From Burkholderiaceae bacterium (GTDB lineage Bacteria > Pseudomonadota > Gammaproteobacteria > Burkholderiales > Burkholderiaceae_C): a stretch of 38,778 nucleotides of DNA. The notes below the pieces were generated by a model. It was not told the DNA's origin, did not search any database, and saw only the letters and a program-made list of their open reading frames with translations. The position numbers were made by a program, and so were the translations under genes. Where the stretch lies: the NCBI GenBank assembly GCA_019751915.1, contig JAIEMS010000033.1, positions 1-38,778 of the forward strand, given 5' to 3'. Below, piece after piece: positions 4,267 through 38,517 of this stretch (position 1 is the first letter of the stretch; the number at the start of each line of letters is the position of its first letter).

Positions 4267-4309
4267 ACCTTTTCCCGACTGCATTCGTGCTGCTATCGAA
4301 TTCTTCGCC

Positions 4310-5659
4310 ATGACCATCCCGAACAAAAATACCCCATCCGCCACCCCTACCACCCCTCCGGTGACCGATTTGCAAGCTCTGTTGGGCGATGGCCTAGAGC
4401 GGCGTTGGTGGCAGCGCCCGGCACTGTGGTTGGCGGCTGTCGTGCTGGCGCTGGCCGGTGGTGGCTGGTACTACTGGCAAGAAAAGCAACTGGCCGGTGC
4501 TGCTCCCAGTTTTGTCACCGAAGAGGTGCGCCGGGGCAACATCACCCTGAGCGTAGCGGCCACGGGCACGTTGCAACCGACGCGCTCGGTCAATATTGGC
4601 AGTGAACTGTCGGGCACAGTGCGCAGTGTGCGTGTCGATGTCAACGACCAAGTGCGCAAAGGGCAGGTGTTGGTTGAACTCGATACCGCCAAACTCGGGG
4701 CGCAGGTGCTGCGTTCGCGGGCCTCGCTGGCAGCGGCCCATGCCCGGTTAGCACAGGCCAGTGCCAGTACCAAAGAAGCCCAAGCCAACTTGGGGCGGCT
4801 CGAAGAAGTTGCGCGCTTGTCCGGCGGCAAGGTGCCATCGGCAGCCGAGTTGGATGCTGGTCGGGCGACGCTTGACCGGGCCATTGCCGACGAAGCCAGT
4901 GGCCGCGCTAGCGTTGATGATGCCAAGGCCGCTCTGTTTACCGACGAAACCAATCTCTCGAAAGCCTCTATCCGTTCGCCCATTGATGGCGTGGTGCTGA
5001 CCCGCACCGTCGATCCGGGCAATGCCGTGGCCGCTTCGCTGCAAGCGGTCACGCTGTTTACCGTGGCCGAAGACCTAACCCAACTGCAATTGCAAGTCAA
5101 TGTCGACGAGGCCGATGTGGGTGCGGTGCAGGTTGGGCAGAAGGCGTACTTCACCGTCAGCGCCTACCCATCGCGCAAATACCCGGCCAAAATCACCCGC
5201 GTGGCCTATGGTTCGACCAAGACCGACAACGTTGTCACCTACATCACTTGGCTGGAGGTCGATAACTCTGACCTGAGCCTGCGCCCCGGGATGACGGCGG
5301 CGGCCACCATCACTTCGACCGAAAGAAACGATGTGCTGCTGGTGCCCAACACTGCGCTGCGTTTTAAGCCCAGCGCCGCCGGGAGCAAACCGAGTGCTGC
5401 TGGCGGTGCGGGCATTGTCTCGCAACTCATGCCGCGCATGCCCCAGCGACCCGGTGGCAGTGGCAGTGGCCGCAGAGGTGGTGCTGAAAAGAGTGCGGGC
5501 AAAGTGCGCCAGATTTGGTTGCTCAAAGACGGCGTGGCCCAGCCCGTGGACGTAACGGTGGGCATCAGCGATGGCCGTACCACCGAAGTCAGCAGCGAGG
5601 CACTGCAACCGGGCATGGCCGTGATTACCGACCAGCGTTCTGCCAAGGCCGTGCCATGA
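4310..5659 (+). CDS. macA: MacA-type periplasmic adaptor (HlyD/RND membrane fusion protein)
   Basis: The 449-residue adaptor bridges the inner-membrane pump and the outer-membrane channel. A single N-terminal membrane anchor (about residues 37-57) is followed by the barrel-sandwich half motif (GTLQPTRSVNIGSELSGTV), a long alpha-helical hairpin rich in Ala, Glu and Arg (about residues 125-210), the second lipoyl half (IRSPIDGVVLTRTVDPGNAV) and a beta-barrel domain (LRPGMTAAATI). A Gly/Ser/Arg-rich low-complexity stretch (GGSGSGRRGG) near residue 390 interrupts the membrane-proximal domain and looks like a lineage-specific loop. ATG 4310 is chosen because upstream codons overlap the previous gene. 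The stop overlaps the ATPase start (ATGA, 5656-5659). Substrate is unknown: macrolides, peptides and siderophores are typical of MacAB relatives. Confidence 0.92.
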   Translation: MTIPNKNTPSATPTTPPVTDLQALLGDGLERRWWQRPALWLAAVVLALAGGGWYYWQEKQLAGAAPSFVTEEVRRGNITLSVAATGTLQPTRSVNIGSELSGTVRSVRVDVNDQVRKGQVLVELDTAKLGAQVLRSRASLAAAHARLAQASASTKEAQANLGRLEEVARLSGGKVPSAAELDAGRATLDRAIADEASGRASVDDAKAALFTDETNLSKASIRSPIDGVVLTRTVDPGNAVAASLQAVTLFTVAEDLTQLQLQVNVDEADVGAVQVGQKAYFTVSAYPSRKYPAKITRVAYGSTKTDNVVTYITWLEVDNSDLSLRPGMTAAATITSTERNDVLLVPNTALRFKPSAAGSKPSAAGGAGIVSQLMPRMPQRPGGSGSGRRGGAEKSAGKVRQIWLLKDGVAQPVDVTVGISDGRTTEVSSEALQPGMAVITDQRSAKAVP

Positions 5660-6404
5660 GCAGCGCACCACCGGGCTTGCCCGAGGACACCATGCCGCTG
5701 ATTCGCCTGCGCGGTGTGACCAAGGTGTATGGCGAGGGTGCGCTGGCATTTCAGGCGCTCAAAGGGGTTGATTTGGACATTGCCCGTGGCGATTTTGTCG
5801 CCATCATGGGGCCGAGCGGTTCGGGCAAATCCACGGCCATGAATACCCTCGGTTGCCTTGACCGACCCACTACCGGCGAGTTTTTGTTTCGCGGCGTGCA
5901 CGTCGAATCGCTCTCGCGCGACGAGCGCGCCCGGCTGCGTCGGCGCTACTTTGGCTTTGTTTTTCAGGGGTTTAACCTTTTGGCGCGCACTTCGGCACAA
6001 GAAAACGTCGAGTTGCCGCTGTTGTACCGGGGCGAGCCGGCCCGCGCCCGCCATGTTGCCGCAGCGCGGGCCCTTGATGCGGTGGGTTTGAAGGGTTGGG
6101 AGCACCATACGCCTGCCGAGTTGTCGGGCGGTCAGCAGCAGCGGGTGGCGATTGCCCGGGCCATCGTGACCGAACCGGCGGTGCTGCTGGCCGACGAGCC
6201 GACCGGCAACCTCGATACCCAGCGCAGCCACGAAATCATGGAGTTGCTGCGCCGCCTCAATACCGAACAGGGCATCACGGTGCTGATGGTCACGCACGAG
6301 CCGGACATGGCTGTTTATGCCCGGCGCATTGTGCGCTTTGTCGATGGTGTGGTGGCCAGCGATGCACCCAACTCTCACCTTGCCCCTGTTGCGGAGGTGT
6401 CCTA

Positions 6405-6405
<1 letters not shown>
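5656..6405 (+). CDS. MacB-type ABC transporter ATP-binding protein
   Basis: The 249-residue nucleotide-binding subunit belongs to the LolD/MacB ATPase group. It contains Walker A GPSGSGKST (residues 52-60), a Q-loop segment (FVFQGFNLL), the ABC signature LSGGQQQR, Walker B VLLADEPTGNLD, and the H-loop MVTHEP. In E. coli MacB this domain and the permease form one chain, whereas here they are separate genes. The permease start overlaps this stop (TAATG, 6403-6407), so equimolar synthesis by translational coupling is expected. It powers the mechanotransmission-type export driven by the neighbouring permease. It is not a truncated remnant, because all nucleotide-binding motifs are present. Confidence 0.95.
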
Positions 6406-7610
<1,205 letters not shown>

Positions 7611-7615
7611 GCCAA

Positions 7616-7683
7616 TTTTTTAGAAAAATAGGCCTGTAGCCCTTGATGGGTCTGCTTTGGTAGCTATTAAAAAGAGAGTAGCT
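7616..7683 (+). repeat. dispersed palindromic repeat, copy A
   Basis: This is one of five related 64-68-base intergenic elements in this window. It shares the block TAGCC/TAGC, CTTG, then GGTAGCTATTAAAA and a terminal TAGC with the other copies at equal spacing. Its right end overlaps the 3' end of the transglutaminase gene on the minus strand and supplies that gene's TAA stop (7667-7669) and the codons for its last residues. Confidence 0.7.
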
Positions 7684-9703
7684 TTCGGCGCATGAGTTGC
7701 CGCCGCAGAGCGCGCAGCGTGGCCTTGCTGCCGGGTTGGGCGGGTGCGTAGCGCAGGCGCTCCAGTGCCAGCAATTGGTCGTGCAGTGGCCGTGCTGCTT
7801 CGCCATAAGCGGCCAGCACCGCTTGGGCCAAGGTGCGTGGCGGTGCGGTGTCCGGCACCACTAAACCTTGGCGCTGAAGCCGCTGGCGCACCTGTTGCAG
7901 CAGGCGCAGCCACGGGTCGTGTTGGCTGCGCTCCCACAGCGTCCACAGGGCACCGGCCAGCGCCGCACCTGCCACCAGCGCGCCCAAAATGCGGGCCAAA
8001 TCGTGCCAACTGGGAGATTCAACGCCCAGCGCTTTGAGCAAATCCAGCTGGCGGCTTTGGGTGTAGTTCAGTACCCACTGGTTCCAGCCGTTGTTGATGG
8101 CCTCCCACGCCGCGCGCAGGTGCTGGGCCATGTTGGGGCTGATGACCGCGCCGACGGCGTTGCCAAACACGCCCAGTGGCGCTTGCAGTCGTTGAAACTG
8201 GCCGACCCGCCCCGGCGACACAGCCCCGGTCGGATCGACGCGCACCCAGCCGCGCTGCTCTATCCAGACTTCAGCCCACGCATGGGCATCGCTTTGGCGC
8301 ACCATCCAGTAATTGTCCAGAGGGTTGCGTTCGCCGCCTTGGTAGCCGGTGACGATGCGCGCAGGCACTTGGGCCGCCCGCATCAGCACGACAAAGGCCG
8401 AGGCAATGTGTTCACAAAAGCCTTGTTTGCGCTCAAACCAAAACTCATCAGCGGTGTGCTGACCATAGACTCCCGGCTCCAGCGTGTATTCGTAGCCCCC
8501 CTCGCGCAGCCGCGCCAGAGCCGCATCCACAATGGCTTGCGTGGCTCCTGCGCCGCGCGGAGCATCGGCACGCAGTTGCTGCGCCAGCGCCACAGTGCGC
8601 GGGTTAAAGCCCGGCGGCAGCACCGTCAGGGCGCGCAGCGCCGGGGTGATTTGCGCTGGGCCGTAGCGAAAATCGGGGTAGCTGGTGGCGCTGTAGCGCA
8701 CGACCTCGGTGATGGGTCGGCTCGATAGCCACTGCAAATCGGGTGTCATGTAGGCCCCCATTCCGGTCACGGTGGGCTTTTCGGGGGTGGCATCGAGCAC
8801 CATCAGCCACGGGCGTTGGTGCGGCTCCAGCGTGATGGCGTAGTGCAGCGGTGCGCCCAGAAGTTGTAATAGGCTTGGCCTGCCTAAGTGGTTCGGCCAG
8901 CCGTCGCTTTGGTGCCATGCCGGTGCTTGCCATTGGCGGCCATCAAAATCCGATAGCACCGGGCCACGAAAATAAAGCTGCGACTGCGCTGGGGCGGCGT
9001 TGCCGGGGGTATCGAACAGCACCCGAAAGGCCACGTTGTCGTCCAGCGCCAGTTGGGCAATGCTGCCGACCTTCATGGATTCCGACAAGCCACTGCGCCC
9101 GGTCAGGGTGTCGTTGGGCAGGCCCCACAGCGGTGCCATGCGCGGAAACAGCACAAACAGCGCCAGCATGATCGGTGCCCCCAGCAGCGCCATCGTGCCA
9201 GCAGTGCGCAGCGATTGCGCCAATGGCGGGCGGCCCACCGGCAAATGGGCATTGACCAGCGCCGTCAGCAGCCCCAGCAGCGCGATCAGCATGGCAGCGG
9301 CAGTGGGCAGCGACTGCGAAAAGAAGAAGTTACTGAGCATCGTAAAGAAGCCCAAGAAAAAGACCACCAGCGCATCCCGCCGCGCCCGCATCTCCAGCGT
9401 TTTGAGCGCCAGCAGCAAAACGATCAGTGCCACGCCGGCCTCGCGCCCGAGGATGGTGCGGTAGGTCAGCAGCGTGGCACCCACGGCCAGTGCCAATAAC
9501 CCGACCAGTAACCAGCGCTGGGGCAGTGGGCGGGCCGTCCACGCCAGCACGCCGCGCCACAGCAGCAAGGCAGCCGCTAGCGCACTGGCCCACAGCGGCA
9601 GGTGCGCCACTTGCGGCCCAATAACCCACGCAATCACCAGCAGCAAAAAAAGGCTGTCGCGGGCATCGCGTGGCAGGGCAGCGAGGGTCTGGCGCAGGGT
9701 CAT
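7667..9703 (-). CDS. TgpA-type membrane transglutaminase (DUF3488 + transglutaminase core)
   Basis: The 678-residue inner-membrane protein has about six membrane helices in residues 15-190 (DUF3488 region), a periplasmic transglutaminase-like domain, and one further helix near residue 570. The predicted catalytic triad is present: C430 in QGFCEHIASAF, H474 in SDAHAWAEVW and D490 in VRVDPTGAV. The family prototype is TgpA of Pseudomonas aeruginosa, where it is essential; its substrate is not firmly known. It is the last gene of moxR-DUF58-tgpA on the minus strand, an arrangement widespread in proteobacteria. The final residues (KLLSF) are encoded by repeat copy A, so the extreme C-terminus is probably not functionally constrained. 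The ATG at 9703 is preceded by repeat copy B. Confidence 0.93.
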   Translation of the reverse strand: MTLRQTLAALPRDARDSLFLLLVIAWVIGPQVAHLPLWASALAAALLLWRGVLAWTARPLPQRWLLVGLLALAVGATLLTYRTILGREAGVALIVLLLALKTLEMRARRDALVVFFLGFFTMLSNFFFSQSLPTAAAMLIALLGLLTALVNAHLPVGRPPLAQSLRTAGTMALLGAPIMLALFVLFPRMAPLWGLPNDTLTGRSGLSESMKVGSIAQLALDDNVAFRVLFDTPGNAAPAQSQLYFRGPVLSDFDGRQWQAPAWHQSDGWPNHLGRPSLLQLLGAPLHYAITLEPHQRPWLMVLDATPEKPTVTGMGAYMTPDLQWLSSRPITEVVRYSATSYPDFRYGPAQITPALRALTVLPPGFNPRTVALAQQLRADAPRGAGATQAIVDAALARLREGGYEYTLEPGVYGQHTADEFWFERKQGFCEHIASAFVVLMRAAQVPARIVTGYQGGERNPLDNYWMVRQSDAHAWAEVWIEQRGWVRVDPTGAVSPGRVGQFQRLQAPLGVFGNAVGAVISPNMAQHLRAAWEAINNGWNQWVLNYTQSRQLDLLKALGVESPSWHDLARILGALVAGAALAGALWTLWERSQHDPWLRLLQQVRQRLQRQGLVVPDTAPPRTLAQAVLAAYGEAARPLHDQLLALERLRYAPAQPGSKATLRALRRQLMRRKLLSF

Positions 9704-14957: not shown

Positions 14958-16442
14958 TCAAGCAGCCATCACAACCCGGTTGCGCCCATTTTGTTTGGCT
15001 TGGTACAGTGCTTTGTCGGCACGTTGCAACATGGCATCGAAGGTTTTTTCGTCGGTGCCCAATGCAACAACGCCGATGCTGACCGTGAATGCCACCACCG
15101 CACCATCGTCTACCCGCACCGTGTCGGTTTTTTCTACCGCCACCCGCAACCGTTCGGCAATGACTTTGGCACCACCCGCGTCAGTAACGGGAAGAATGAC
15201 GGCGAACTCCTCGCCACCCAAACGCCCGCCCACATCTTGGTGGCGGGCAAGTGCCATGAGCAAACGGGCTAGCTCTTGAATCACCCGATCGCCCGTGGGG
15301 TGCCCCCAGCCGTCGTTAATGCTCTTAAATTTATCGATGTCCACCATCAGCACCGATAGCGGGTGCCCATAACGCCTTGCACGGGCAAACTCGCGCTCGC
15401 CGATGTCCATCAATTGGCGGCGGTTGGCAATGCCGGTCAGGGCATCGGTGGTTGCCAATTGGCGCATGGCCTCGCGTTGGCGCAAGGCTTGTAGGTGGGC
15501 ACGCAGTGCCAGCACTGCCAATACCGACAACACCACAAAACCGATGGCAAACTGCCATGCACGGTAGGTCCATGATTGGAGAATGCTTTCCCGATCCAAA
15601 CCCACAATGGCGACAAAAGGAAATCTGTGCAGCTTGCTCAGGCCGTTGATACGCATCCGGCCATCGATGGGTGAAGGCATCGTAAAAAATACCGAACCGA
15701 CAATTTCATTGAAATGGGGTTGCCCATCAGGTGTCGATGTTCGTTGACCCATCGCCACGGGCAATTCTGGATTGCGTGCCAGCAGCGTACCGTCGGTATC
15801 GACAATGGCCATCACATCGTTGCGTTCGATGTCTAGCTCAGAAATCCACCTTTGGGCAAATGCCACATCGATGACCGCCATAACACCACCGAGCAAACGT
15901 CCGTCAGCCGAACCAAGGGTGCGCGACATCAGTACCACCGCTTCGCCCCCAGCAGACTGATCGGCTGGCATATATTGAATATGGACACCTTGGCCCGGAT
16001 GCACCTTGGCATCTTTGCAAAAGCGCTGCTTGCTTTGAATGCCCGTGAGGGTGCCACTGGCGGTAGCGGTAAAAATGCAATCAGGGGACAACACCACCAG
16101 CGTTTTAACCCCGCTCAGGGTGTTGACCTTTTCTTTCAGCAGCGCAGTCAAGCGCTTTGTTGATTCAACATTGGGCTGCGGAAACACCAAATCTTGTCTG
16201 GTGTCGATCCGGCCCAAAACGTCGCGCAGAACATAATCAGCAGCCAAAAAGGTATCGCCAAACGAACGGCTGAGTAACTGGCTTTTGTGGACGGCAAGTC
16301 TGGCGGCATCGGCGGTGAGGCGGTCTCGCTCCTGAACAAAATCAAAAGCCAACCACGCACCAATCACCACCATCAAAACCAACAAGGCGGCGTAGCTGCG
16401 ACCCAGTTTCAGAGCAAATCGTGGTTTGGTGGTGGTGGTCAA
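14958..16442 (-). CDS. membrane diguanylate cyclase with periplasmic sensor domain
   Basis: The 494-residue protein makes cyclic di-GMP from two GTP. TM1 is at about residues 15-35, a large periplasmic region (36-290) has Cache-like features (FLAADYVLRDVLGRID, a GVKTLVVLSPDC strand, GGVMAVIDVAF), TM2 is at about 293-313, and a GGDEF domain occupies 330-494. The active site is GGEEF at 409-413 with FKSINDGWGHPTGD upstream, and the product-inhibition I-site RHQD (400-403) sits exactly five residues before it, so the enzyme looks active and feedback-controlled. The start is taken as TTG 16442: it follows the upstream gene's stop by two bases, has AAGGA eight bases upstream, and no ATG is placed suitably. 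It is the last gene of the TRAP transporter cluster. Confidence 0.93.
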   Translation of the reverse strand: MTTTTKPRFALKLGRSYAALLVLMVVIGAWLAFDFVQERDRLTADAARLAVHKSQLLSRSFGDTFLAADYVLRDVLGRIDTRQDLVFPQPNVESTKRLTALLKEKVNTLSGVKTLVVLSPDCIFTATASGTLTGIQSKQRFCKDAKVHPGQGVHIQYMPADQSAGGEAVVLMSRTLGSADGRLLGGVMAVIDVAFAQRWISELDIERNDVMAIVDTDGTLLARNPELPVAMGQRTSTPDGQPHFNEIVGSVFFTMPSPIDGRMRINGLSKLHRFPFVAIVGLDRESILQSWTYRAWQFAIGFVVLSVLAVLALRAHLQALRQREAMRQLATTDALTGIANRRQLMDIGEREFARARRYGHPLSVLMVDIDKFKSINDGWGHPTGDRVIQELARLLMALARHQDVGGRLGGEEFAVILPVTDAGGAKVIAERLRVAVEKTDTVRVDDGAVVAFTVSIGVVALGTDEKTFDAMLQRADKALYQAKQNGRNRVVMAA

Positions 16443-16444
16443 TT

Positions 16445-16918
16445 TCAGTGTCCTTGTTGCACGACCTTCTGGGCAAAAGCGTACAGCACAGCCACATCGG
16501 CACAGTAAAACCAAGCAATGGCCCCATTGCGTTTGCGCACCAACAAGCGCGGTGCCACGAGCCACTCAAGCCGTCGCCAATGGACGAGTTTGAAAGTGGC
16601 GACTTCGTGGGCCTGGACACGCTTGTCCCACAGCCATGTCTGAAGCAGGGCGGTGCCCTCTAGCCGGGTGTGGCTGTAAACCATCCACCATGCTACCCAG
16701 CCCATCAACCCTGCTGCCAGAGAAAACACCGACAGACTGGGAAAACTCCACTCGACAGCGCGCAACGCAGGCAGCGACCACACACCCGCACCCAGCAAGC
16801 CGACCACGACGGCGACCGCCAACACGCGCAGCAACGGTGGATAGGCCGGGCCTTCCAGCACTGCGCTGTGGTGGTCGGATGGCGCAGGTACGTCGGCGCT
16901 GGTGGTGCTAGCACTCAT
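16445..16918 (-). CDS. two-TM membrane protein of unknown function in the TRAP cluster
   Basis: The 157-residue protein is not one I recognise. It has a polar N-terminus, two hydrophobic segments (about residues 29-50 and 60-80), and a basic, tryptophan-rich cytoplasmic part (WLWDKRVQAHEVATFKLVHWRRLEWLVAPRLLVRKRNGAIAWFYCADVAV in part) followed by a short hydrophobic tail. The layout recalls small PH-like membrane proteins, but this is only a structural impression. Its ATG overlaps the dctM stop by 4 bases, and the diguanylate cyclase start follows its stop by two bases, so it is translationally tied to both and may connect transport with signalling. Confidence 0.82.
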   Translation of the reverse strand: MSASTTSADVPAPSDHHSAVLEGPAYPPLLRVLAVAVVVGLLGAGVWSLPALRAVEWSFPSLSVFSLAAGLMGWVAWWMVYSHTRLEGTALLQTWLWDKRVQAHEVATFKLVHWRRLEWLVAPRLLVRKRNGAIAWFYCADVAVLYAFAQKVVQQGH

Positions 16919-18450
16919 CGTGCAGGGCTGGCGGACGGTGCTGGCGCAGGCATGGGCAACTCTGCTGGAGCACCCGCATCGCTCTTTTTGTCACCAAAAG
17001 GGTCTTCCATATTGATGTTGTTGCCCGGTTGCTGGTCGGTGGGCATTTCCAGCTGCACCTTGTCGGTATCAACGACGACCTCTTTGTCCAAAAACACCGT
17101 CACCGTCTGCGGAAAGGCAATCACGATAGCGACGAGCAGTATCTGCATCCCGACCCAAGGAATAGCCCCCATGTAAATGTCGCTGGATTTGACGGGCCGG
17201 TCGATGCGTTTTTCTTTAAACAAGGTGTTTGCAATACCGCGCAGGTAAAACAGCGCGAACCCGAAAGGCGGGTGCATAAAGCTGGTTTGCATGTTCACGC
17301 ACAGCAGCACGCCAAACCACACCAAATCGATGCCGAGTTTGTGTGCCACCGGCCCCAGCAGCGGCAAGATGATGAAGGCGATCTCGAAAAAATCGAGAAA
17401 GAAGGCCAAAAAGAAGATAAACAGGTTGACCACCACCAAAAAGCCAATTTGTCCACCGGGCAGGTCACTGAGCAGATGCTCAATCCAGACCGCCCCATCC
17501 ACGCCCTGAAACACCAACGAGAACACCCGCGAACCGATCAAAATAAACACCACCATGGCCGTCAAGCGCATGGTGCCATCCATCGAATCGCGCACCAGCG
17601 CCCAATTCAAGCGTTTGTGAATCGCCGCCAAAATCAGCGCACCGACGGCACCCATGGCTCCAGCCTCCGTCGGCGTGGCAATAGCGTGGTCCATGAACGG
17701 CAACCCGCCCATAGAACCCAGCACGGCAAAAATCAAGATGGCCGATGGAATGATCCCGCGCAAGCATTTGCCCCACAGTGCCCAGCCGTGCAGGGTGCGG
17801 GCAGTGCGCGGCAAACCGGGCACATAGTCAGGCCGCAGACGGCCCAAAATGAAGGTGTAGAGGGCAAAAATCAGCACCTGCAAGATGGATGGCCCCCAAG
17901 CACCCTTGTACATATCGCCCACCGAGCGGCCCAATTGGTCGGCCATCACAATCAACACCAGCGAAGGCGGCACCAATTGGGTGATGGTGCCCGAGGCGGC
18001 CAGCACACCGGTGGCGTAGCGCATATTGTAGCCGTAACGCATCATCACTGGCAGCGAAATCATCGCCATCGCAATGACCTGACCGGCCACCGTGCCGGTA
18101 ATGGCCCCCAAAATAAAGCCCACGATGATGACCGAGTAACCCAGCCCACCGCGCACCGGGCCAAAGAGTTGGCCCATCGAGTCGAGCATGTCTTCGGCCA
18201 GACCGCACTTTTCTAGCACCGCCCCCATCAGCGTAAAGAACGGAATCGCCAGCAGCAGGTCGTTGGACAAAATGCCGAACATATTGATCGGCAAGTTGGC
18301 CATGAAATTGGCCGGAAACCATCCCATCTCGATGGCATAAAAGCCACTGAACAGCCCCAGCGCGGCCAGCGAGAACGCGACCGGAAAGCCGATCAGCATG
18401 ATGACGATCAACCCGGCGAACATGACCGGGGCAAAATTTTCCATTGACAT
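16915..18450 (-). CDS. dctM: TRAP transporter large permease subunit (DctM-type)
   Basis: The 511-residue inner-membrane protein has about twelve helices and the DctM hallmarks: IGFPVAFSLAALGLFSGFY near the N-terminus, LLAIPFFTLMGAVLEKCGLAEDMLD, GAITGTVAGQVIAMAMISLPVMMRYGYN, a GAMGAVGALILA segment and a late FFEIAFIILPLLGPV. It is longer than common DctM proteins (about 425-440 residues). The last 65 or so residues form a soluble Pro/Ala-rich tail with NMEDPFGDKK. It imports an organic acid or similar solute driven by a sodium gradient together with DctQ and a periplasmic binding protein, which is not encoded nearby. ATG 18450 has AGGA upstream, and a second in-frame ATG lies at 18444. Confidence 0.93.
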   Translation of the reverse strand: MSMENFAPVMFAGLIVIMLIGFPVAFSLAALGLFSGFYAIEMGWFPANFMANLPINMFGILSNDLLLAIPFFTLMGAVLEKCGLAEDMLDSMGQLFGPVRGGLGYSVIIVGFILGAITGTVAGQVIAMAMISLPVMMRYGYNMRYATGVLAASGTITQLVPPSLVLIVMADQLGRSVGDMYKGAWGPSILQVLIFALYTFILGRLRPDYVPGLPRTARTLHGWALWGKCLRGIIPSAILIFAVLGSMGGLPFMDHAIATPTEAGAMGAVGALILAAIHKRLNWALVRDSMDGTMRLTAMVVFILIGSRVFSLVFQGVDGAVWIEHLLSDLPGGQIGFLVVVNLFIFFLAFFLDFFEIAFIILPLLGPVAHKLGIDLVWFGVLLCVNMQTSFMHPPFGFALFYLRGIANTLFKEKRIDRPVKSSDIYMGAIPWVGMQILLVAIVIAFPQTVTVFLDKEVVVDTDKVQLEMPTDQQPGNNINMEDPFGDKKSDAGAPAELPMPAPAPSASPAR

Positions 18451-30794: not shown

Positions 30795-31436
30795 ATGCCC
30801 TCCGATGAGGCTTCGGCGCTGCCGATGGTGGTGATTTTGGCCCTGGCATTGGGCGTAGCACTGTGGATGCGCCCGTGGCGGTTGTTGCGCGGCGGTGCCT
30901 TGCTAACCCCTGCGCTGGCTGTTTTGGTGCTACTGCCTTGGCTTTGGGCGCTCCCGCACCTGCATGCTATGCCGCTGCAATTGCAATGGTCGGGGGCCTG
31001 TTTGGTCGTTTTGATGCTGGGTTGGCCGTTGGCGATGCCCGTGCTGGCACTGGTGGGCGTGGTGGCGGGACTGTTCAGCGGAGCCTCGTGGGAAGCCATA
31101 GGCTCGATGGTGCTATGGCAAGGGGTTGTGCCAGCAACTTTGGCCTTGGGCTTTGGTGCGCTACTGCGCCGGTTTGTGGGTGAACACCTGTTTGTTTACG
31201 TACTGGGCCGGGCTTTTTTAGGCACGGTGGTGTGTGCCTTTGCAACCGGAGCGTTGGCCCAATGGAGTGGGCAGAGTCTGCCCGGCGTGGACGAGAACTT
31301 ATCGATGGTGGCCCGCTGGTTGATGGCTTGGGGCGATGCCTTTGTCACCGGTATGCTGGGTGCCGTCTTTGTGGCCTTTAAGCCTGAATGGTTAGCGACG
31401 TGGTCAGACACCCTTTATTTGCGTAAACCGCCCTGA
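30795..31436 (+). CDS. polytopic membrane protein of uncertain function
   Basis: The 213-residue, very hydrophobic protein has about six membrane segments. It has a central GASWEAIGSMVLWQGVVPATLALGFGALLRRFVGEHLFVYVLGRAFLGT stretch (shown here as a description of residues 97-145, with charged RR and GEH between helices) and an Asp-containing AWGDAFVTGMLGAVFVAF helix near the end. The pattern weakly recalls CbiM-type substrate-specific components of energy-coupling-factor transporters, but I see no ATPase or EcfT gene and do not rely on it. It starts 27 bases after mfd and may be co-transcribed with it. Confidence 0.8.
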   Translation: MPSDEASALPMVVILALALGVALWMRPWRLLRGGALLTPALAVLVLLPWLWALPHLHAMPLQLQWSGACLVVLMLGWPLAMPVLALVGVVAGLFSGASWEAIGSMVLWQGVVPATLALGFGALLRRFVGEHLFVYVLGRAFLGTVVCAFATGALAQWSGQSLPGVDENLSMVARWLMAWGDAFVTGMLGAVFVAFKPEWLATWSDTLYLRKPP

Positions 31437-31543
31437 TTTTCTGCCCGATCGCACAGGCAAAATCCTGTTCCCGGCCTTGCCGCTTCGCTCGGGGCTTGTT
31501 GCCTGCGAGGGCGTGCTCGGCCTTTCTTCAGGAAGGTTTTCGT

Positions 31544-32914
31544 ATGAATGTATTGTCAGCTGTCGTTGGTGCCACCAACGTACCCGTCTCAGTGAACCCA
31601 TCGCGGGCTTTTAGACTGCGCCGAACCCTCTGGAACAGTGCCTGCGCTGTGGCGCTGGCCACCAGCTTGTTGCCGGTCACCGCCCCAGCCAGTACGCCCG
31701 TAGCAGCTACGCCTGCATCCAAACCCCTCAAGCTGGCACTGATTGAAAGCCTCTCGGGGCCATTTGCCAACACCGGCGAGGCCGTGTTTCGCAACATCCA
31801 CTGGGCCTTGGAGCGGGTCAATGCGCGCGGTGGAGTGCAGTTGCCTGCCAGCGCCGGTGGCCCGCGCCCGATGGTGTTAGAGCGCTACGACAGCAAGGGC
31901 CAGAACGAGGAGGCATTGTCGGCCTTGCGCGCCGCCATTGACGATGGCGCTCAAGTCATTCTGCAAGGCAATTCGTCATCGACGGCAGCGGCGCTGATAG
32001 ACGCTATTAACAAACACAACGAGCGCGAGCCAAGCAAGCGGGTGCTGTTTTTGAACTATTCGGCAGTCGATCCCATTTTGACCAACGAAAAATGCAGCTT
32101 TTGGCATTTCCGCTTTGATGCCCATGCCGATATGCGCATGGCTGCCTTGATGGATGTGGTGCGCGAGGACAAAGCCATCAAGAGCGTTTATCTGATTGGT
32201 CAAGACTACAGTTTCGGTCAAGCGGTGCTGCGCGAAGCCAAAAAGCAACTGACGGCCCAGCGCCCCGATGTCAGCATCGTGGGTGACGAACTGCACCCCG
32301 TGGGCCGCGTCAAAGACTTTGCGCCCTATGCGGTCAAAATCAAATCCAGCGGCGCTCAAGCTGTGGTCACAGGCAACTGGGGCAACGATTTAACGCTGTT
32401 GGTCAAGGCCGCCCGCGAAGTCGGTTTTGATGGCACTTTCTATACCTTCTACGGTAACGCTCTGGGCGCACCCGCAGCGCTGGGGGATGCGGGCGTGGGT
32501 AAAGTGCTGGCTGTGGCCGATTGGTTGCCCAATGTACCGGGGGCACAAAGCGAGGCTTTTTACCAATCGTTTCGCACCCGCTTTCCTAAGCCGCAGGACG
32601 ACTATGTCCATATGCGGATGCAGCTGATGGTCGAAGCACTGGCGCAGTCGGCAGAGCGCGCGGGCAGCACCGATGTGCTGGCAATGGCCCGGCAACTCGA
32701 AAAATCCCAAGTTCAGTTGGCTGGTCAGGGCGGTTATATGCGTGCTGCCGACCACCAGTTCCAACAAGCACTGGTGGTCGGCATGATGGAAAAACAGGGT
32801 ACGCCGGGCGTGAAATTTGACGTTGAAGGCTCCGGTTATGGCTTTCGTGTGGTGCGTCAAATGACACCTGCCAAGGCAGAGCAGCCGCACAGCTGCAAAA
32901 TGCAGCGCCCTTGA
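31544..32914 (+). CDS. ABC-type branched-chain amino acid (LivK-like) substrate-binding protein
   Basis: The 456-residue periplasmic protein has a long basic N-terminal region, then a hydrophobic signal (about residues 30-50, cleavage near APAS), and a type I periplasmic-binding fold: LKLALIESLSGPFANTGEAVFRNI, a VILQGNSSSTAAALIDAI segment, YLIGQDYSFGQAVL and AQAVVTGNWGNDLTLLVKAARE. Such proteins bind amino acids, amides or aromatic acids for import. No permease or ATPase genes are near, so it is an orphan that either serves a transporter elsewhere or has a sensory role. AGGAAGG lies seven bases before ATG 31544, an excellent ribosome-binding site. An in-frame codon at 31496 is rejected for lacking one. 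Confidence 0.92.
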   Translation: MNVLSAVVGATNVPVSVNPSRAFRLRRTLWNSACAVALATSLLPVTAPASTPVAATPASKPLKLALIESLSGPFANTGEAVFRNIHWALERVNARGGVQLPASAGGPRPMVLERYDSKGQNEEALSALRAAIDDGAQVILQGNSSSTAAALIDAINKHNEREPSKRVLFLNYSAVDPILTNEKCSFWHFRFDAHADMRMAALMDVVREDKAIKSVYLIGQDYSFGQAVLREAKKQLTAQRPDVSIVGDELHPVGRVKDFAPYAVKIKSSGAQAVVTGNWGNDLTLLVKAAREVGFDGTFYTFYGNALGAPAALGDAGVGKVLAVADWLPNVPGAQSEAFYQSFRTRFPKPQDDYVHMRMQLMVEALAQSAERAGSTDVLAMARQLEKSQVQLAGQGGYMRAADHQFQQALVVGMMEKQGTPGVKFDVEGSGYGFRVVRQMTPAKAEQPHSCKMQRP

Positions 32915-33241
32915 GAGGGGCCGTGGCCTGAACTTTGAGGTCAAAAATGCTACTAGCGCTTGTACAGCAAGCGTTAGTAGCTATCAAATTAATAGCATTT
33001 TGGCAGATGGAAAACTTGAGGTGCGCCATTTCTTGGACAGGCACTCTCTTGGTTTTCCCTGCATGGTGCTGTGCTGACAGTGCTAGCACAAAAAGTCTGA
33101 TCAGCGTAGAACAATGCCTGAAGGACTGGTACGATTCTCTTTCTGATTTACTTCAGAGTCCCCCTTTCATCGTACAGGATGCAATAAAAAATTCTCCTTA
33201 TGACTACGGGGAATTCGGCAATCACCTATCGGGAGCCTTTC
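32915..33241. other. 327-base intergenic region between the LivK-like gene and the signalling operon
   Basis: The first part holds repeat copy E (32936-33001). The rest (33002-33241) appears non-coding and shows two exact palindromes, GTGCTAGCAC at 33080-33089 and CTGATCAG at 33097-33104. These lie 138-162 bases before the binding-protein start and could be operator sites. The base composition shifts to AT-rich within this region. I could not place a convincing sigma-70 promoter by eye. Confidence 0.5.
32936..33001 (+). repeat. dispersed palindromic repeat, copy E (best hairpin)
   Basis: The clearest copy of the family. GCTACTAGCGCTTG (32949-32962) pairs with CAAGCGTTAGTAGC (32968-32981) over 14 positions with one G-T wobble and a 5-base loop. 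A second pairing, AAAATGCTA (32944-32952) with TAGCATTTT (32993-33001), is perfect and partly exclusive of the first. It starts 22 bases after the LivK-like stop and could act as its transcript end. Confidence 0.85.
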
Positions 33242-34303
33242 ATGAAAAATTGGATTCAACTATTTTTCTGCTCGGTCATTGTTTCTGCATTATCTGGAAA
33301 TGCCATCGCCACAGATATGAAATCCTACCGAATTGGTGTTCTTTTCTGGTCATCCAATATTCCTGGTCAAGTCGCCATGCGAAAAGGACTGGAAGCCGAA
33401 GTTCAAAATATTAACCAAAGATCGCATACAGCCGGAGAGCCGGGGATTGAAATTTTTGCCAAGGTCGCCGGTGATGGGCCTTTGGGCGTTGAGAACCAAA
33501 TTTCTCAGATGAACGCCTTGATTGCTACCAAGCCAGATGCTATCGTAGTTCAACCCACTGATAATGCTGCATTGTCGGGGCCTCTTCGGGCAGCCAATCA
33601 AGCTGGAATTCCGGTTATTGCTTACGATCAATACATCAGTGGTGGTAAATTGGCGGCCTACGTTACTTCAGACAATCGTCAGGCCGGCTATCTTGGCGGA
33701 GAATATTTGGCAGCCAAATTTCCAGAAAAGTCAATACTAAATTTGATTTTGATTGAATATCCAATGGTTTCTTCTACCGTGGAGCGGCTCAACGGATTTC
33801 TGGACGCTCTTAGAGACAATGATAAGAAATTTAAAATACTCAAAATTTATCAGGCAGTGGAACCCATTTCAGGAAAATTGGCCGGAGAATCCATTGTTCG
33901 TGATTTCCCTGAACCACGCAGTATCGATGCAATATTTACAGTCAATGATGGCGGTGGTCTTGCAGTGGTTGATGCGCTATCGAAAGCTGGGCGAAATGAA
34001 ATTGCTATTGCCACAGTAGATGGTGATCCTACTTCGATCAAAAATATCCAAGAACGGCGACTTACCCAAATCGATGCAGCTCAATTTTGTGGGCCTATTG
34101 GGGCAGCAGCCATATCAACAGCTTATGCAATTTTGCGCGGGAGAAAGGTACCAACACAGATTCTGGTACCAGTTTTCCCAGTGACTGCGGAGACACTAGT
34201 ACGTTATCCGGGCTGGCAAGGCCCCATTCCTTCTTCTTTTATAAAGCCATGGAAAGCGAAGGAATCAATTTGGAACAAAAATCCGATGGAGGTAAATAAA
34301 TAG
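33242..34303 (+). CDS. secreted sugar-type periplasmic binding protein (PF13407-like)
   Basis: The 353-residue protein has a classical signal peptide (residues 1-23, cleavage after NAIA) without a lipobox, followed by a type I periplasmic-binding fold of the ribose/LuxP/TorT group: YRIGVLFWSSNIPGQVAMRKGLEAE, a NQISQMNALIATKPDAIVVQP segment, GIPVIAYDQYISGGKLAAYVTSDNRQAGYLGGEYLA and IAIATVDGDPTSIKNI. No ABC permease or ATPase gene is adjacent. Instead the stop overlaps by one base the GTG start of a histidine kinase, so its probable role is to present a ligand to the kinase sensor domain. GGGAG is seven bases before ATG 33242, and an in-frame start at 33200 is less likely. Composition is AT-richer than the genes to its left. 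Confidence 0.9.
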   Translation: MKNWIQLFFCSVIVSALSGNAIATDMKSYRIGVLFWSSNIPGQVAMRKGLEAEVQNINQRSHTAGEPGIEIFAKVAGDGPLGVENQISQMNALIATKPDAIVVQPTDNAALSGPLRAANQAGIPVIAYDQYISGGKLAAYVTSDNRQAGYLGGEYLAAKFPEKSILNLILIEYPMVSSTVERLNGFLDALRDNDKKFKILKIYQAVEPISGKLAGESIVRDFPEPRSIDAIFTVNDGGGLAVVDALSKAGRNEIAIATVDGDPTSIKNIQERRLTQIDAAQFCGPIGAAAISTAYAILRGRKVPTQILVPVFPVTAETLVRYPGWQGPIPSSFIKPWKAKESIWNKNPMEVNK

Positions 34304-36246
34304 TGTCATTGCTAGAGGATGGACTGAACTCCCAACGATTCTCCAATATTGATCGCCGGCTTGCACTGACATTTGGCGGCTTGATTTTTCTACTCATGAC
34401 GTTGGTACTACTTATCGGTGGTTGGTACCTCAGTGGTATTATGGAGAAAGAGCAGGATCGTCTCGCCACATTAACATCAAGGGTACTTTCCAATGCAGTT
34501 AGTCGCGTCAGTTTTTCAGGAAAATACCAAGCGCGACTCTTGCTTGAAGAGATCAAAGCACAACAGCACGATATTATTTACCTCCGGCTCATTGATCCCC
34601 AAGGCATTGTGATTGCCCACAGCAATCCAGCAGAAAATGACTCGCGGCTCGATGATGAGCCTATGATGGGGGTTCGCACGGTTCTTTCTAGCGAGACTGA
34701 TCTTATCGTCAGAAAATTCATTCTCAATGGTGAATCAATTCGTGAAGTTAGTGCATTTTATCGAGGTGGATATGATAATTCTACTGTCGGCGTGATTCAA
34801 ATAGGAATATCAGAAACCGTAAGAGAAAAATCACTGCGAGATGGTGTTTTTTATATTGCACTTCTTTTACTTTTACTGCTTATTATTGGAATTGCGGTTA
34901 CATTAAAAGTCAGCAAATATTTTGGTACACCCGTGCGTCAACTGGCTATTAAAATGGAACGAGAGCGTAGCTTTCTACACGCTTTAATAAGCACCATCCC
35001 AGACCTTATTTGGTTCAAAGATACAAATGGAGTCTATCTAACTTGCAATCGATCTTTCGAGAAATTGATAGGAAAATCTGAGATCGAAATTATCGGGAAG
35101 CGCGATAGTGATTTTTTTCCTCCTGATTTACAAGAGCTATTCCGAAAAAAGGATATGGAAGCTATCTCAGCAGGAAAACCAACTCTGAATGAAGAATGGG
35201 TTACTTTTGCAAACGATAATTCAAAAGCTCTTCTAGAAACCATCAAAACCCCTCTATACAACTACGATGGGAAATTAATGGGTGTTCTTGGGCTTGGGCA
35301 TGATATTACAGAACATCGCCATATCCAAAGTGAATTAACCCTCCATAGGGATCGCCTTGAAGATATTGTTCAACAAAGAACTGCTGAATTGGTTGCAGCA
35401 AAAACAGAAGCAGAGCGAGCGAATGAAGAAACTAACTTAGCGCTTGAAAATTTACGCCGCACCCAAGACGAATTGGTAAAATCTGAAAAAGTTGCTGCAC
35501 TTGGTTCATTGGTAGCTGGCGTTGCTCATGAGCTTAATACACCTATTGGCAACGCTGTCACCATCGCTTCGACGGTTCAATACAAGCTTATAGGACTCAA
35601 GGAGCTTGTAGAAAAGGGACTGACACGCAGCGCACTTATGGATTTCTTCGATACCGTTGGCGAGGGAACAGAAATTCTCGAAAGAAACCTACGTCAAGCT
35701 GCTGATCTTATTTCAAATTTTAAGCAATTGGCAGTAGACCAATCGAGCTACCAACGCCGGAAGTTTGTTTTGCATACTGCGATCAATGAGGTCAGCGTTG
35801 TTATGGCACCTGCGCTACGCAAGGCAGGTGTCAACCTCGAATGCACAGTTCCCCCTGAAATTAATTTAGATAGCTATCCTGGGCCACTAACCCAAGCCTT
35901 GATAATTTTAGTCAACAATTCATTAATTCATGCTTTCGCAGGCCGAGAAACTGGAAGTATTCATATATCGGCCCAAAGGGAAGAATCTGGGTGGATTAGT
36001 ATTATCACGAAGGATGACGGATCTGGGATTGAAAAAAACAATATCGGACGTATTTTTGAGCCATTTTTCACCACAAAATTAGGGCAAGGTGGTTCCGGTC
36101 TTGGCCTGCATATTTTATTTAATATTGTAACTGGAGTCCTCGGAGGACGAGTTTCCGTCGATAGCAAAATAAATAATGGTGCGAAATTTATTATTTCTAT
36201 ACCAATACTGCCAACATCTGCAAAATTAAATCCTCTTGCTATTTAA
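34303..36246 (+). CDS. PAS-domain sensor histidine kinase coupled to the binding protein
   Basis: The 647-residue membrane kinase has TM1 at about residues 21-43, a periplasmic sensor of about 140 residues (44-182; includes YLRLIDPQGIVIAHSN, a Cache/PAS-like strand), TM2 at 183-201, a PAS domain at about 221-340 (STIPDLIWFKDTNGVYLTCNRSF, ending GLGHDITEHRH), a coiled coil (345-395), and a kinase core. H409 lies in GVAHELNTPIGNAV, the N-box is near N538-N539 (LVNNSLIHA), the G1 box is DDGSG (571-575) and the G2 box GGSGLGLHI (596-604). The GTG start at 34303 overlaps the binding-protein stop, with GGAGG ten bases upstream. The receiver it should phosphorylate is encoded 45 bases downstream. 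Confidence 0.92.
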   Translation: MSLLEDGLNSQRFSNIDRRLALTFGGLIFLLMTLVLLIGGWYLSGIMEKEQDRLATLTSRVLSNAVSRVSFSGKYQARLLLEEIKAQQHDIIYLRLIDPQGIVIAHSNPAENDSRLDDEPMMGVRTVLSSETDLIVRKFILNGESIREVSAFYRGGYDNSTVGVIQIGISETVREKSLRDGVFYIALLLLLLLIIGIAVTLKVSKYFGTPVRQLAIKMERERSFLHALISTIPDLIWFKDTNGVYLTCNRSFEKLIGKSEIEIIGKRDSDFFPPDLQELFRKKDMEAISAGKPTLNEEWVTFANDNSKALLETIKTPLYNYDGKLMGVLGLGHDITEHRHIQSELTLHRDRLEDIVQQRTAELVAAKTEAERANEETNLALENLRRTQDELVKSEKVAALGSLVAGVAHELNTPIGNAVTIASTVQYKLIGLKELVEKGLTRSALMDFFDTVGEGTEILERNLRQAADLISNFKQLAVDQSSYQRRKFVLHTAINEVSVVMAPALRKAGVNLECTVPPEINLDSYPGPLTQALIILVNNSLIHAFAGRETGSIHISAQREESGWISIITKDDGSGIEKNNIGRIFEPFFTTKLGQGGSGLGLHILFNIVTGVLGGRVSVDSKINNGAKFIISIPILPTSAKLNPLAI

Positions 36247-36291
36247 AAAGAACGCGCTCTTGCTTACTTTGATTTAGAAGATAAATAATAT

Positions 36292-38517
36292 ATGAACACC
36301 ACAACCAAAGAGTCAACAAGCGATTTATTTGTTTTTACTGCAGAAGACCCTAAAGAAGTTCAATCGACAAGTATAGATGCGCAATGGAAAATACTCGTCG
36401 TGGATGATGAGAAAGATGTGCACAGCACGACCATTTTGGCTCTGCGTGGAGTTTTCATTGAAGGGCGCTCTTTATGTTTTATGCACGCTTATTCGGCAAG
36501 TGAAGCCAAGTCGATTATTGCAGATACCTCTGATATTGCCGTATTGCTACTTGATGTCGTCATGGAGTCAGAAAGTGCTGGCCTTGATTTAGTCAAACAT
36601 GTTCGAAAAGAATTAAATCGGAATGACGTTAGAATTGTTCTACGCACTGGCCAGCCAGGCTATGCACCAGAAGTTGACACAATCCGCGATTACGATATTA
36701 ACGACTATAAGACAAAGTCAGAGCTGACACGCACACGCCTTTTTACCAGCCTGACAGTGGCTATTCGCTCCTATCGACAAATCCGCCAATCAGAAGCGAC
36801 ACGACGTGGACTAGAAAGCATCATCAATGCAAGCATCGATCTTAGTCGTATTCAAAGTGTAAAAAACTTTGCCGATGGGGTCGTTACGCAATTATGTGCT
36901 CTGTTTGATGTTGAGTCTGAAGGCCTTGTATGTGCTGGAAATCAATATTCAAATAAGGAACCGCCATTTCTCGTGATGGCCGCCGCTGGACGTTATGCTC
37001 AATTCATCGGAAAATCCTTGGATACGATCACCGATAAAGAAGTAGTTCATCGTTTATATGAAACACTCAATCTTAAGAAAAGCACCATAGGCAAAGGAAC
37101 TTGCCTTTATTTTCCAGTAAGCGATTCCAAAGGAATTGCCGCATACATTGATCTATCAAGTAAGATTGATGAAATAGACAGGCAGCTCATTGAAATATTC
37201 ATCACAAATATCAAGTCAGGATTTGAAAATACATATCTACAGCAAAAAATAGCAACCTTGGCTTATTTTGATAGAATATCTGGGCTTCCCAATCGGAATT
37301 CATTTATTGATTTCATAAAAAAAGAAGCGACTGAGTGCTCTGTTGTTGCTCAGATTGATATTGATAATTTTTCTGATATTAATAGTATATTAGATTTAAG
37401 TTTTGGCGATGATGTATTACGTGCAGTAGCAGCAAGACTACTAGATAATTTTCCTCCACCAACACGATTAGCACGGCTTGGTTCAGATACGTTTGGCCTG
37501 CTTGGTTCGCAAGATGCTGTGAACCCTCATACCATTGAAGCCGTATTCTCCGACCCTTTTTTAATAGGGGAACACTCATTGCGTTTATCCGCAACAAGTG
37601 GCTTAGTGGTTTGTAGCAATGAATCATTAAATGGAATTAATGCACTCAAAAATTCGTCCGTTGCAGTCAAACAAGCAAAGCAGTTAGCACGGAGCAAATG
37701 CATTTTTTTTGATCCAGCTCAGTCGATTGCGGCAAAAGAACGATTATTAATGCTAAGTAACTTGCGATCAGCATTCTCATGCGATCGACTTTTTGTTGTT
37801 TTTCAGCCATTTATTAGCCTTAAAAACAATCAAATAGTTGGCGCAGAAACTTTATTGCGCTGGAAAACTGATTCTGGTAAATTCATTCCTCCCAACAGAT
37901 TTATACCATTAGCTGAAGAGTCTGGATTGATGGTTCCACTCGGAAAATGGATTATTCGATCAGCCTTTAGGGAGCAACGCAAATTCCAAATGATGACCAG
38001 CGACCCATTTAGAATTGCAATTAATGTTTCACACGTTCAATTTCGAGAACCAGATTTTGTTGAAACCCTTGCAAAGGCAATATTAGAATTTGATATTGAC
38101 CCAAACAATGTAGAAATAGAATTAACCGAATCTGTAGCCATAGATAATCTTATATCCATCATGGAAACATTGAAACAAGTAAGAATTCTTGGCGTAAGCA
38201 TCTCGATTGATGACTTTGGAACTGGTTATTCTTCTTTGTCCATCATCAGCAAATTACCAATTCATCGACTAAAAATTGATCAGAGTTTTATTAGAAATAT
38301 AGAAACCGACTCATCTATTTCTAAGTTAATTATTCAACTCGCCAAAGAATTGAATTTAGAAACTATCGCTGAGGGAATTGAGTCTGAAGCTCAATACAAA
38401 ATGATTCAAGATTTAGGCTGTACAGAAGGGCAAGGTTATTTATTTTCACGCCCGCTGACAGCCGATGCATTTGAAGATTATTTTGCCAACCAGATCCATG
38501 CAATCAGTGCGCAGTGA
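36292..38517 (+). CDS. response regulator with DUF3369, degenerate GGDEF and EAL domains
   Basis: The 741-residue cytoplasmic regulator has a receiver domain (about residues 30-160; D38/D39, phosphoacceptor D88 in LLLDVV, T119, K140), a DUF3369 domain (about 168-315, RRGLESIINASIDLSRIQ), a GGDEF-fold domain (about 322-475) whose signature is GSDTF at 397-401, and an EAL domain (about 485-735). The cyclase signature is lost, so no c-di-GMP synthesis is expected. The EAL domain keeps E519 (AETLLRW), N578, E610 (IELTES), D640-D641 (DDFGTG), K661, E694 and EGQGY, so c-di-GMP hydrolysis is likely. It has no DNA-binding domain. It is the output of the binding protein-kinase pair encoded upstream. 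Confidence 0.93.
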   Translation: MNTTTKESTSDLFVFTAEDPKEVQSTSIDAQWKILVVDDEKDVHSTTILALRGVFIEGRSLCFMHAYSASEAKSIIADTSDIAVLLLDVVMESESAGLDLVKHVRKELNRNDVRIVLRTGQPGYAPEVDTIRDYDINDYKTKSELTRTRLFTSLTVAIRSYRQIRQSEATRRGLESIINASIDLSRIQSVKNFADGVVTQLCALFDVESEGLVCAGNQYSNKEPPFLVMAAAGRYAQFIGKSLDTITDKEVVHRLYETLNLKKSTIGKGTCLYFPVSDSKGIAAYIDLSSKIDEIDRQLIEIFITNIKSGFENTYLQQKIATLAYFDRISGLPNRNSFIDFIKKEATECSVVAQIDIDNFSDINSILDLSFGDDVLRAVAARLLDNFPPPTRLARLGSDTFGLLGSQDAVNPHTIEAVFSDPFLIGEHSLRLSATSGLVVCSNESLNGINALKNSSVAVKQAKQLARSKCIFFDPAQSIAAKERLLMLSNLRSAFSCDRLFVVFQPFISLKNNQIVGAETLLRWKTDSGKFIPPNRFIPLAEESGLMVPLGKWIIRSAFREQRKFQMMTSDPFRIAINVSHVQFREPDFVETLAKAILEFDIDPNNVEIELTESVAIDNLISIMETLKQVRILGVSISIDDFGTGYSSLSIISKLPIHRLKIDQSFIRNIETDSSISKLIIQLAKELNLETIAEGIESEAQYKMIQDLGCTEGQGYLFSRPLTADAFEDYFANQIHAISAQ

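Follow-up and report, generated by a model that had tools for sequence, protein, structure and literature searches.

Three co-directional genes lie at the 3′ end of a 38,778-nucleotide (nt) stretch of DNA from a Burkholderiaceae bacterium (the window, which is the whole of contig C25 in a 2.72 Mb assembly of 55 contigs). They encode a secreted solute-binding protein (SBP), a membrane histidine kinase and a response regulator with DUF3369, GGDEF and EAL domains. The original prediction, made from the letters alone, described three tightly spaced genes, and the coordinates of the open reading frames (ORFs) confirm this. All three ORFs are present on the forward strand; position 34303 is both the last base of the TAG stop of the SBP gene and the first base of the GTG start of the kinase gene, giving a one-base overlap, and 45 nt separate the end of the kinase gene (36246) from the start of the regulator gene (36292). 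We consider it probable that the SBP and a Cache-type receptor form a sensing module with exchangeable outputs, joined here to a kinase and a predicted cyclic di-GMP (c-di-GMP) phosphodiesterase.

Table 1. Features of the operon, in window coordinates (aa, amino acids; TM, transmembrane helix; REC, receiver domain)
Feature	Position	Strand	Basis or remark
Secreted RbsB-like SBP (Peripla_BP_4), 353 aa	33242..34303	+	ORF, Pfam, model
Membrane histidine kinase, 647 aa, GTG start	34303..36246	+	TM1, sCache periplasmic domain, TM2, PAS, HELNTP, HATPase
Kinase sensor half, residues 14-216	34342..34950	+	Common to partners of the nine other SBPs
Response regulator, 741 aa, REC-DUF3369-degenerate GGDEF (GSDTF)-EAL	36292..38517	+	Predicted c-di-GMP phosphodiesterase

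Pfam matches and motifs bear out the domain composition originally read from all three proteins. The SBP matches Peripla_BP_4 (1.7e-43), and its AlphaFold2 model, with a mean predicted local distance difference test score (pLDDT) of 83.4, has ribose-binding proteins as its best structural matches. Its ATG at 33242 lies 3′ of a ribosome-site-like GGGAG stretch and opens a hydrophobic, signal-peptide-like N-terminus; an alternative in-frame ATG is found at 33200. The kinase matches sCache_3_2 (6.8e-6, just under the gathering score), PAS and HATPase_c, and contains an HELNTP motif at 409 (H409) together with N and G boxes. Hydrophobic stretches at residues ~18-48 and 176-208 flank its periplasmic part, close to the 44-182 given before, and the sensor half comprises about residues 1-216. 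The model of the sensor domain (mean pLDDT 78.8, predicted TM-score 0.56) resembles the Cache sensors of WalK, KinD, DctB and CitA, with LuxQ at rank 48; a sensor sequence profile run against PDB sequences gave one match, at E 0.1, which we took as chance.

The regulator matches EAL (4.6e-66), DUF3369 (2.4e-47), GGDEF (2.6e-14) and, under the gathering score, Response_reg (2.4e-4). Its receiver has a phospho-acceptor set (acidic pair D38/D39, D88, T119 and K140), and the EAL domain has the motifs ETL (at the EAL position), INVS, ELTES, DDFGTGYSS, KID, AEGIES and GQGY. The GGDEF signature is degenerate, reading GSDTF at 397-401. In the kinase, receiver and EAL domains alike, the motif residues are assigned their customary catalytic roles. 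Because the EAL motifs are present and GSDTF is degenerate, we predict that the regulator is a phosphodiesterase without cyclase activity, and at the level of motifs the proposal that the output is removal of c-di-GMP, the signal molecule under which cells stay in biofilms, thus holds.

To define the SBP family, we searched overlapping sets of 120, 369, 20, 54, 399, 398 and 48 genomes at E <= 1e-30 (1e-35 for the 369-genome class set). The family has ten members: the window SBP and nine orthologues, in genomes G359, G491, G654, G685, G256, G548, G908, G905 and G911, with identities to the window protein of 50-63% over the full alignment (53-66% locally in the search tables). It is rare and scattered, with G905, G908 and G911 outside the window's class, and plasmids gave no SBP match at E <= 1e-20. 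In nine of the ten loci, the next gene on the same strand after the SBP gene specifies a membrane protein that matches sCache_3_2. At the tenth (locus L130, in G905), a transposase gene lies between the SBP gene and its partner. This is a DDE transposase gene at 9158-11053 of L130, separating SBP and kinase genes; the C-terminal tail of the G905 SBP also diverges from the other members in the alignment. The sCache_3_2 match has E <= 1e-3 in every one of the ten partners; in the window and G548 proteins it falls just short of the Pfam gathering score.

The partners share the sensor and differ beyond it. In G359, G491, G654 and G685 the partner is a PAS-GGDEF-EAL protein; it is a plain kinase in the window, G256 and G548, and a hybrid kinase in G908, G905 and G911. 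Over residues 17-215 of the window kinase, sensor identity is 30-58% across the partners; over the PAS region (225-340) it is only 11-21%, in 80-104 aligned columns (the alignment used the first 330 residues of each partner). Since the similarity stops after the second membrane helix, outputs have been exchanged at about that point. Broken GGDEF or EAL domains in the G491 and G685 proteins were considered and rejected, as the motifs read AGDEF and EILLRM.

The SBP and the sensor also occur and diverge together. The sensor half (E <= 1e-6) and the SBP match exactly the same three of the 369 class genomes; with the window left out, the naive chance of this co-occurrence for the other two genomes is 1.5e-5. 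Pairwise distances among the SBPs and among the sensors are correlated at r = 0.855, a value reached by none of 5000 permutations.

With the regulator as bait, we confirmed at least 533 relatives and kept the best 80 loci, some of which end at contig ends. A same-strand HELNTP kinase lies within 700 nt in 13 of these 80, and this class of kinase is therefore a recurrent, though not universal, partner of the regulator. No SBP gene lies beside the regulator relatives in any of the best 80 loci, some cut by contig ends, and the regulator thus does not define the system. Nor is DUF3369 specific to EAL outputs, since it is also reported beside a receiver in HD-GYP proteins (PMC9756655, PMC4212101).

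The binding pocket is conserved across the family. We aligned the verified E. coli RbsB sequence with the ten SBPs and considered 14 positions that we take to be the ligand contacts of RbsB. Thirteen of the 14 are invariant among the ten proteins, which range from the Burkholderiales to a different class in the same phylum. Against a background of 110 invariant residues among the 303 between 28 and 330, the naive binomial probability of 13 or more is 1.8e-5, although pocket residues of such proteins are generally conserved anyway. Six RbsB residues are retained (D89, S103, R141, N190, D215 and Q235). The other eight positions differ, including all four aromatics: F15, F16, F164 and F214 are replaced by G, Q, V and V/I (the F164 column adjoins an alignment gap, making its assignment less sure), and N13, N64, R90 and I132 by I, Q, Q and Y. 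From the invariance of the pocket and its eight differences from RbsB, we infer that the ten SBPs bind one common ligand, polar and not ribose.

The neighbourhoods favour sensing over import, as the original prediction had it. The Cache partner follows directly in nine of the ten loci, Pfam finds no ATP-binding cassette (ABC) permease or ATPase in the window operon, and none was found among 36 scanned neighbouring ORFs at the nine other loci (a subset of the ORFs there, some of which may not be genes). The alternative named at the outset, that homologues of the SBP are usually encoded beside ABC permeases, is thus not what these 36 ORFs show.

Other neighbours vary from locus to locus. The gene immediately upstream of the G548 pair, in the same orientation, encodes an MFS transporter. 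Genes for spermidine synthase and arginine decarboxylase precede the G359 pair by about 1-2 kb (14974-17861 of locus L115); the gene just upstream of the G491 pair differs from these polyamine genes, and the contig stops at that point. The G256 pair is preceded, at 3723-8827 of locus L116, by several signalling genes (HDOD, a lone receiver and HDOD-GGDEF); among them, adjoining the SBP gene, is one for a receiver protein whose C-terminal part is unassigned. In G905 (3471-7722 of L130) and G911 (11668-15961 of L131), a GGDEF-EAL gene and then a DegT/DnrJ-type aminotransferase gene are divergent from the SBP gene. A signal-making gene beside the SBP is conceivable in these two genomes, because ScrA, the maker of the ScrB signal, is likewise termed an aminotransferase (PMC11315295). 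We dropped a guess at the ligand from neighbouring genes, which vary between loci.

The operon itself was probably acquired, since its G+C content is low (41.1%, against 59.7% for bases 1-32910) and, among 120 genomes of relatives, the SBP is found at E <= 1e-30 only in the window's own. Third-position G+C is 0.31-0.36 in the operon genes and 0.66-0.67 in two upstream genes. At the G+C boundary 5′ of the operon, positions 32949-32981 hold a near-perfect inverted repeat, GCTACTAGCGCTTG...CAAGCGTTAGTAGC, whose core pattern has three copies in the genome and is absent from a reversed control; this is possibly a small repeat element near an insertion junction. Directly upstream, at 31541-32914, is a second binding-protein gene (Peripla_BP_6) with host-like G+C. 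No ABC gene was seen beside it: the sole scanned upstream ORF (30795-31436) has no family match, and downstream lies the acquired operon. Promoter-like and terminator-like sites were about as frequent as in shuffled sequence, Rfam and tRNA scans of the window gave no matches, and PADLOC gave none for any of the three proteins.

These features suggest an operon built of two modules. One would be a travelling SBP and Cache receptor, which in other genomes occurs in direct fusion with GGDEF-EAL or with other kinases; the other would be a HELNTP kinase core with a REC-DUF3369-GGDEF-EAL protein, which elsewhere appears without the SBP. A periplasmic ligand would be captured by the RbsB-like SBP, which, loaded or empty, would dock on the Cache domain of the kinase, as the recurrence of the pair and its matched divergence strongly suggest. 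Docking would set kinase activity, and the kinase would pass phosphate to the receiver of the regulator, a step to which gene adjacency and the presence of the same kinase class beside some other DUF3369-EAL regulators point. Phosphorylation would then switch the EAL domain and its predicted hydrolysis of c-di-GMP, with the ligand either raising or lowering it, while the GSDTF domain, judged by its residues, would make none. It is a further possibility, to which we give somewhat less than an even chance, that the ten SBPs are one receptor family for one non-ribose extracellular signal, whose module spread and became connected to c-di-GMP enzymes or phosphorelays as interchangeable outputs. If so, one cue would be processed along different internal pathways in different bacteria, in the window's host via a phosphorelay to c-di-GMP breakdown.

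Several observations weigh against the proposed two-module sensing system. The complete three-gene set is a single case: the co-occurrence search proposed with the original prediction found no conserved unit, with the set in one of the ten SBP loci (the window) and none of the 80 regulator loci. The pairing of kinase and regulator is not universal either, as 67 of those 80 loci have no same-strand HELNTP kinase within 700 nt; 12 of the 67 have such a kinase farther away or on the opposite strand (three of these 12 without HELNTP). In the window, the sCache_3_2 and receiver matches fall below the Pfam cut-offs and HisKA has no match in the kinase, and the matched SBP and sensor distances may reflect shared descent alone. 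Import must be weighed as well. The SBP is related to RbsB, and members of that family serve as subunits of ABC importers; a Cache domain often binds small ligands on its own; and nine BPD_transp_2 permease matches elsewhere in the genome make import via one of them possible. The SBP might then serve an ABC importer encoded elsewhere, with the kinase sensing the ligand directly via its Cache domain and controlling the phosphodiesterase. Adjacent SBP and kinase genes, moreover, need not be linked: the sensor domains of AgtS and AruS showed no binding to nearby SBPs (PMC11113362). We regard this explanation as quite unlikely, given that the pair recurs in all ten loci with the sensor half kept and the output changed, that SBP and sensor co-occur identically in the 369 genomes, and that close pairs account for eight of the nine permease matches, the remaining one adjoining an ABC ATPase gene.

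The output can also be read differently. With ETL in place of EAL, a degenerate GGDEF and a weak receiver match, the EAL protein might be an effector of c-di-GMP or phosphorylation that acts by protein contact instead of hydrolysis. This seems to us very unlikely, since the other EAL-domain motifs searched for are intact, including loop 6 (DDFGTGYSS), and in MbaA of V. cholerae, where the motif reads EVL, the metal-binding residues are conserved (PMC9993111). Alternatively, the kinase might also phosphorylate regulators encoded elsewhere, with gene regulation as the main output and the EAL protein as a side branch. Five of the nine other partners are kinases, and in the fetched stretches none has a relative of the window REC-EAL protein downstream; moreover, the window contig ends 261 bases past the regulator gene, and further downstream genes are possible. 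However, the EAL regulator is the first candidate on account of the spacing in the operon, and the other four partners carry GGDEF-EAL directly, and we judge this alternative unlikely. We thus favor an SBP and Cache receptor module that is joined, in the window, to a kinase and a predicted phosphodiesterase.

One sensing module with one conserved pocket is found on six kinases and on four proteins that carry GGDEF-EAL directly. A single ligand screen on the soluble SBP could identify the signal of all ten members, and it would become testable whether recombination where the second membrane helix ends can transfer a receptor from one output type to another. Pairs of a soluble binding protein and a membrane kinase are established in LuxP-LuxQ and TorT-TorS, whose outputs are gene regulation. 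The original comparison with these pairs stands as to the kind of pairing; as family members, the window proteins score far below the cut-offs (LuxQ, 70.9 of 1200 bits; TorS, 74 of 676.5 bits; TorT, to which the SBP is weakly similar, 30.3 of 200 bits), and the LuxQ periplasmic domain is a distant fold match of the window sensor. CUT2-type ABC sugar importers have ABC genes beside the SBP, none of which was found in the window operon or among the 36 scanned ORFs, and the RbsB ribose pocket, from which the SBPs differ at eight of 14 positions. RocR/PvrR-type phosphodiesterases combine a receiver and an EAL domain under a kinase; the window regulator additionally has DUF3369 and a degenerate GGDEF, and scores 144.7 bits against the PvrR model over residues 440-735 (cut-off 580).

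SBPs are known to activate chemoreceptors, kinases and c-di-GMP enzymes (PMC9602780). In c-di-GMP networks, direct demonstrations of stimuli reaching kinases are described as exceptionally rare, and SBP_bac_3 is reported as the only member of the periplasmic-binding-protein clan to have been studied (PMC8846402). The set of SBP, kinase and REC-EAL protein was not found described in literature searched by title and start of abstract, which is weak evidence; the original prediction likewise knew of no described system with this exact composition. It missed that SBPs set c-di-GMP via GGDEF-EAL membrane proteins in NspS-MbaA (PMC9993111) and ScrB-ScrC (PMC11315295). The window and the nine other loci follow this kind of arrangement, with the SBP gene linked to that of a membrane partner with a periplasmic domain. 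In NspS-MbaA of Vibrio cholerae and Sinorhizobium meliloti, as in the window, the SBP gene overlaps that of its membrane partner, and ligand state sets c-di-GMP, as we propose here (PMC9993111). However, NspS is a PotD-like polyamine protein and the window SBP is RbsB-like (Peripla_BP_4), and MbaA itself carries GGDEF-EAL where the window has a kinase and a response regulator; an MbaA-like layout with the window's SBP family is found in four of the nine other loci. In ScrABC of Vibrio parahaemolyticus, ScrB with its signal turns ScrC into a phosphodiesterase, but there is no kinase step, and the aminotransferase ScrA makes the signal (PMC11315295). RpfC-RpfG of Xanthomonas likewise leads from an extracellular signal via a sensor kinase to a receiver-containing c-di-GMP phosphodiesterase, but its output is HD-GYP instead of DUF3369-GGDEF-EAL, and the passage cited mentions no binding protein (PMC4212101). 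SBP control of c-di-GMP is thus already known, and what sets the window apart is the union of an RbsB-like SBP, a two-component step and a DUF3369-EAL output in one set.

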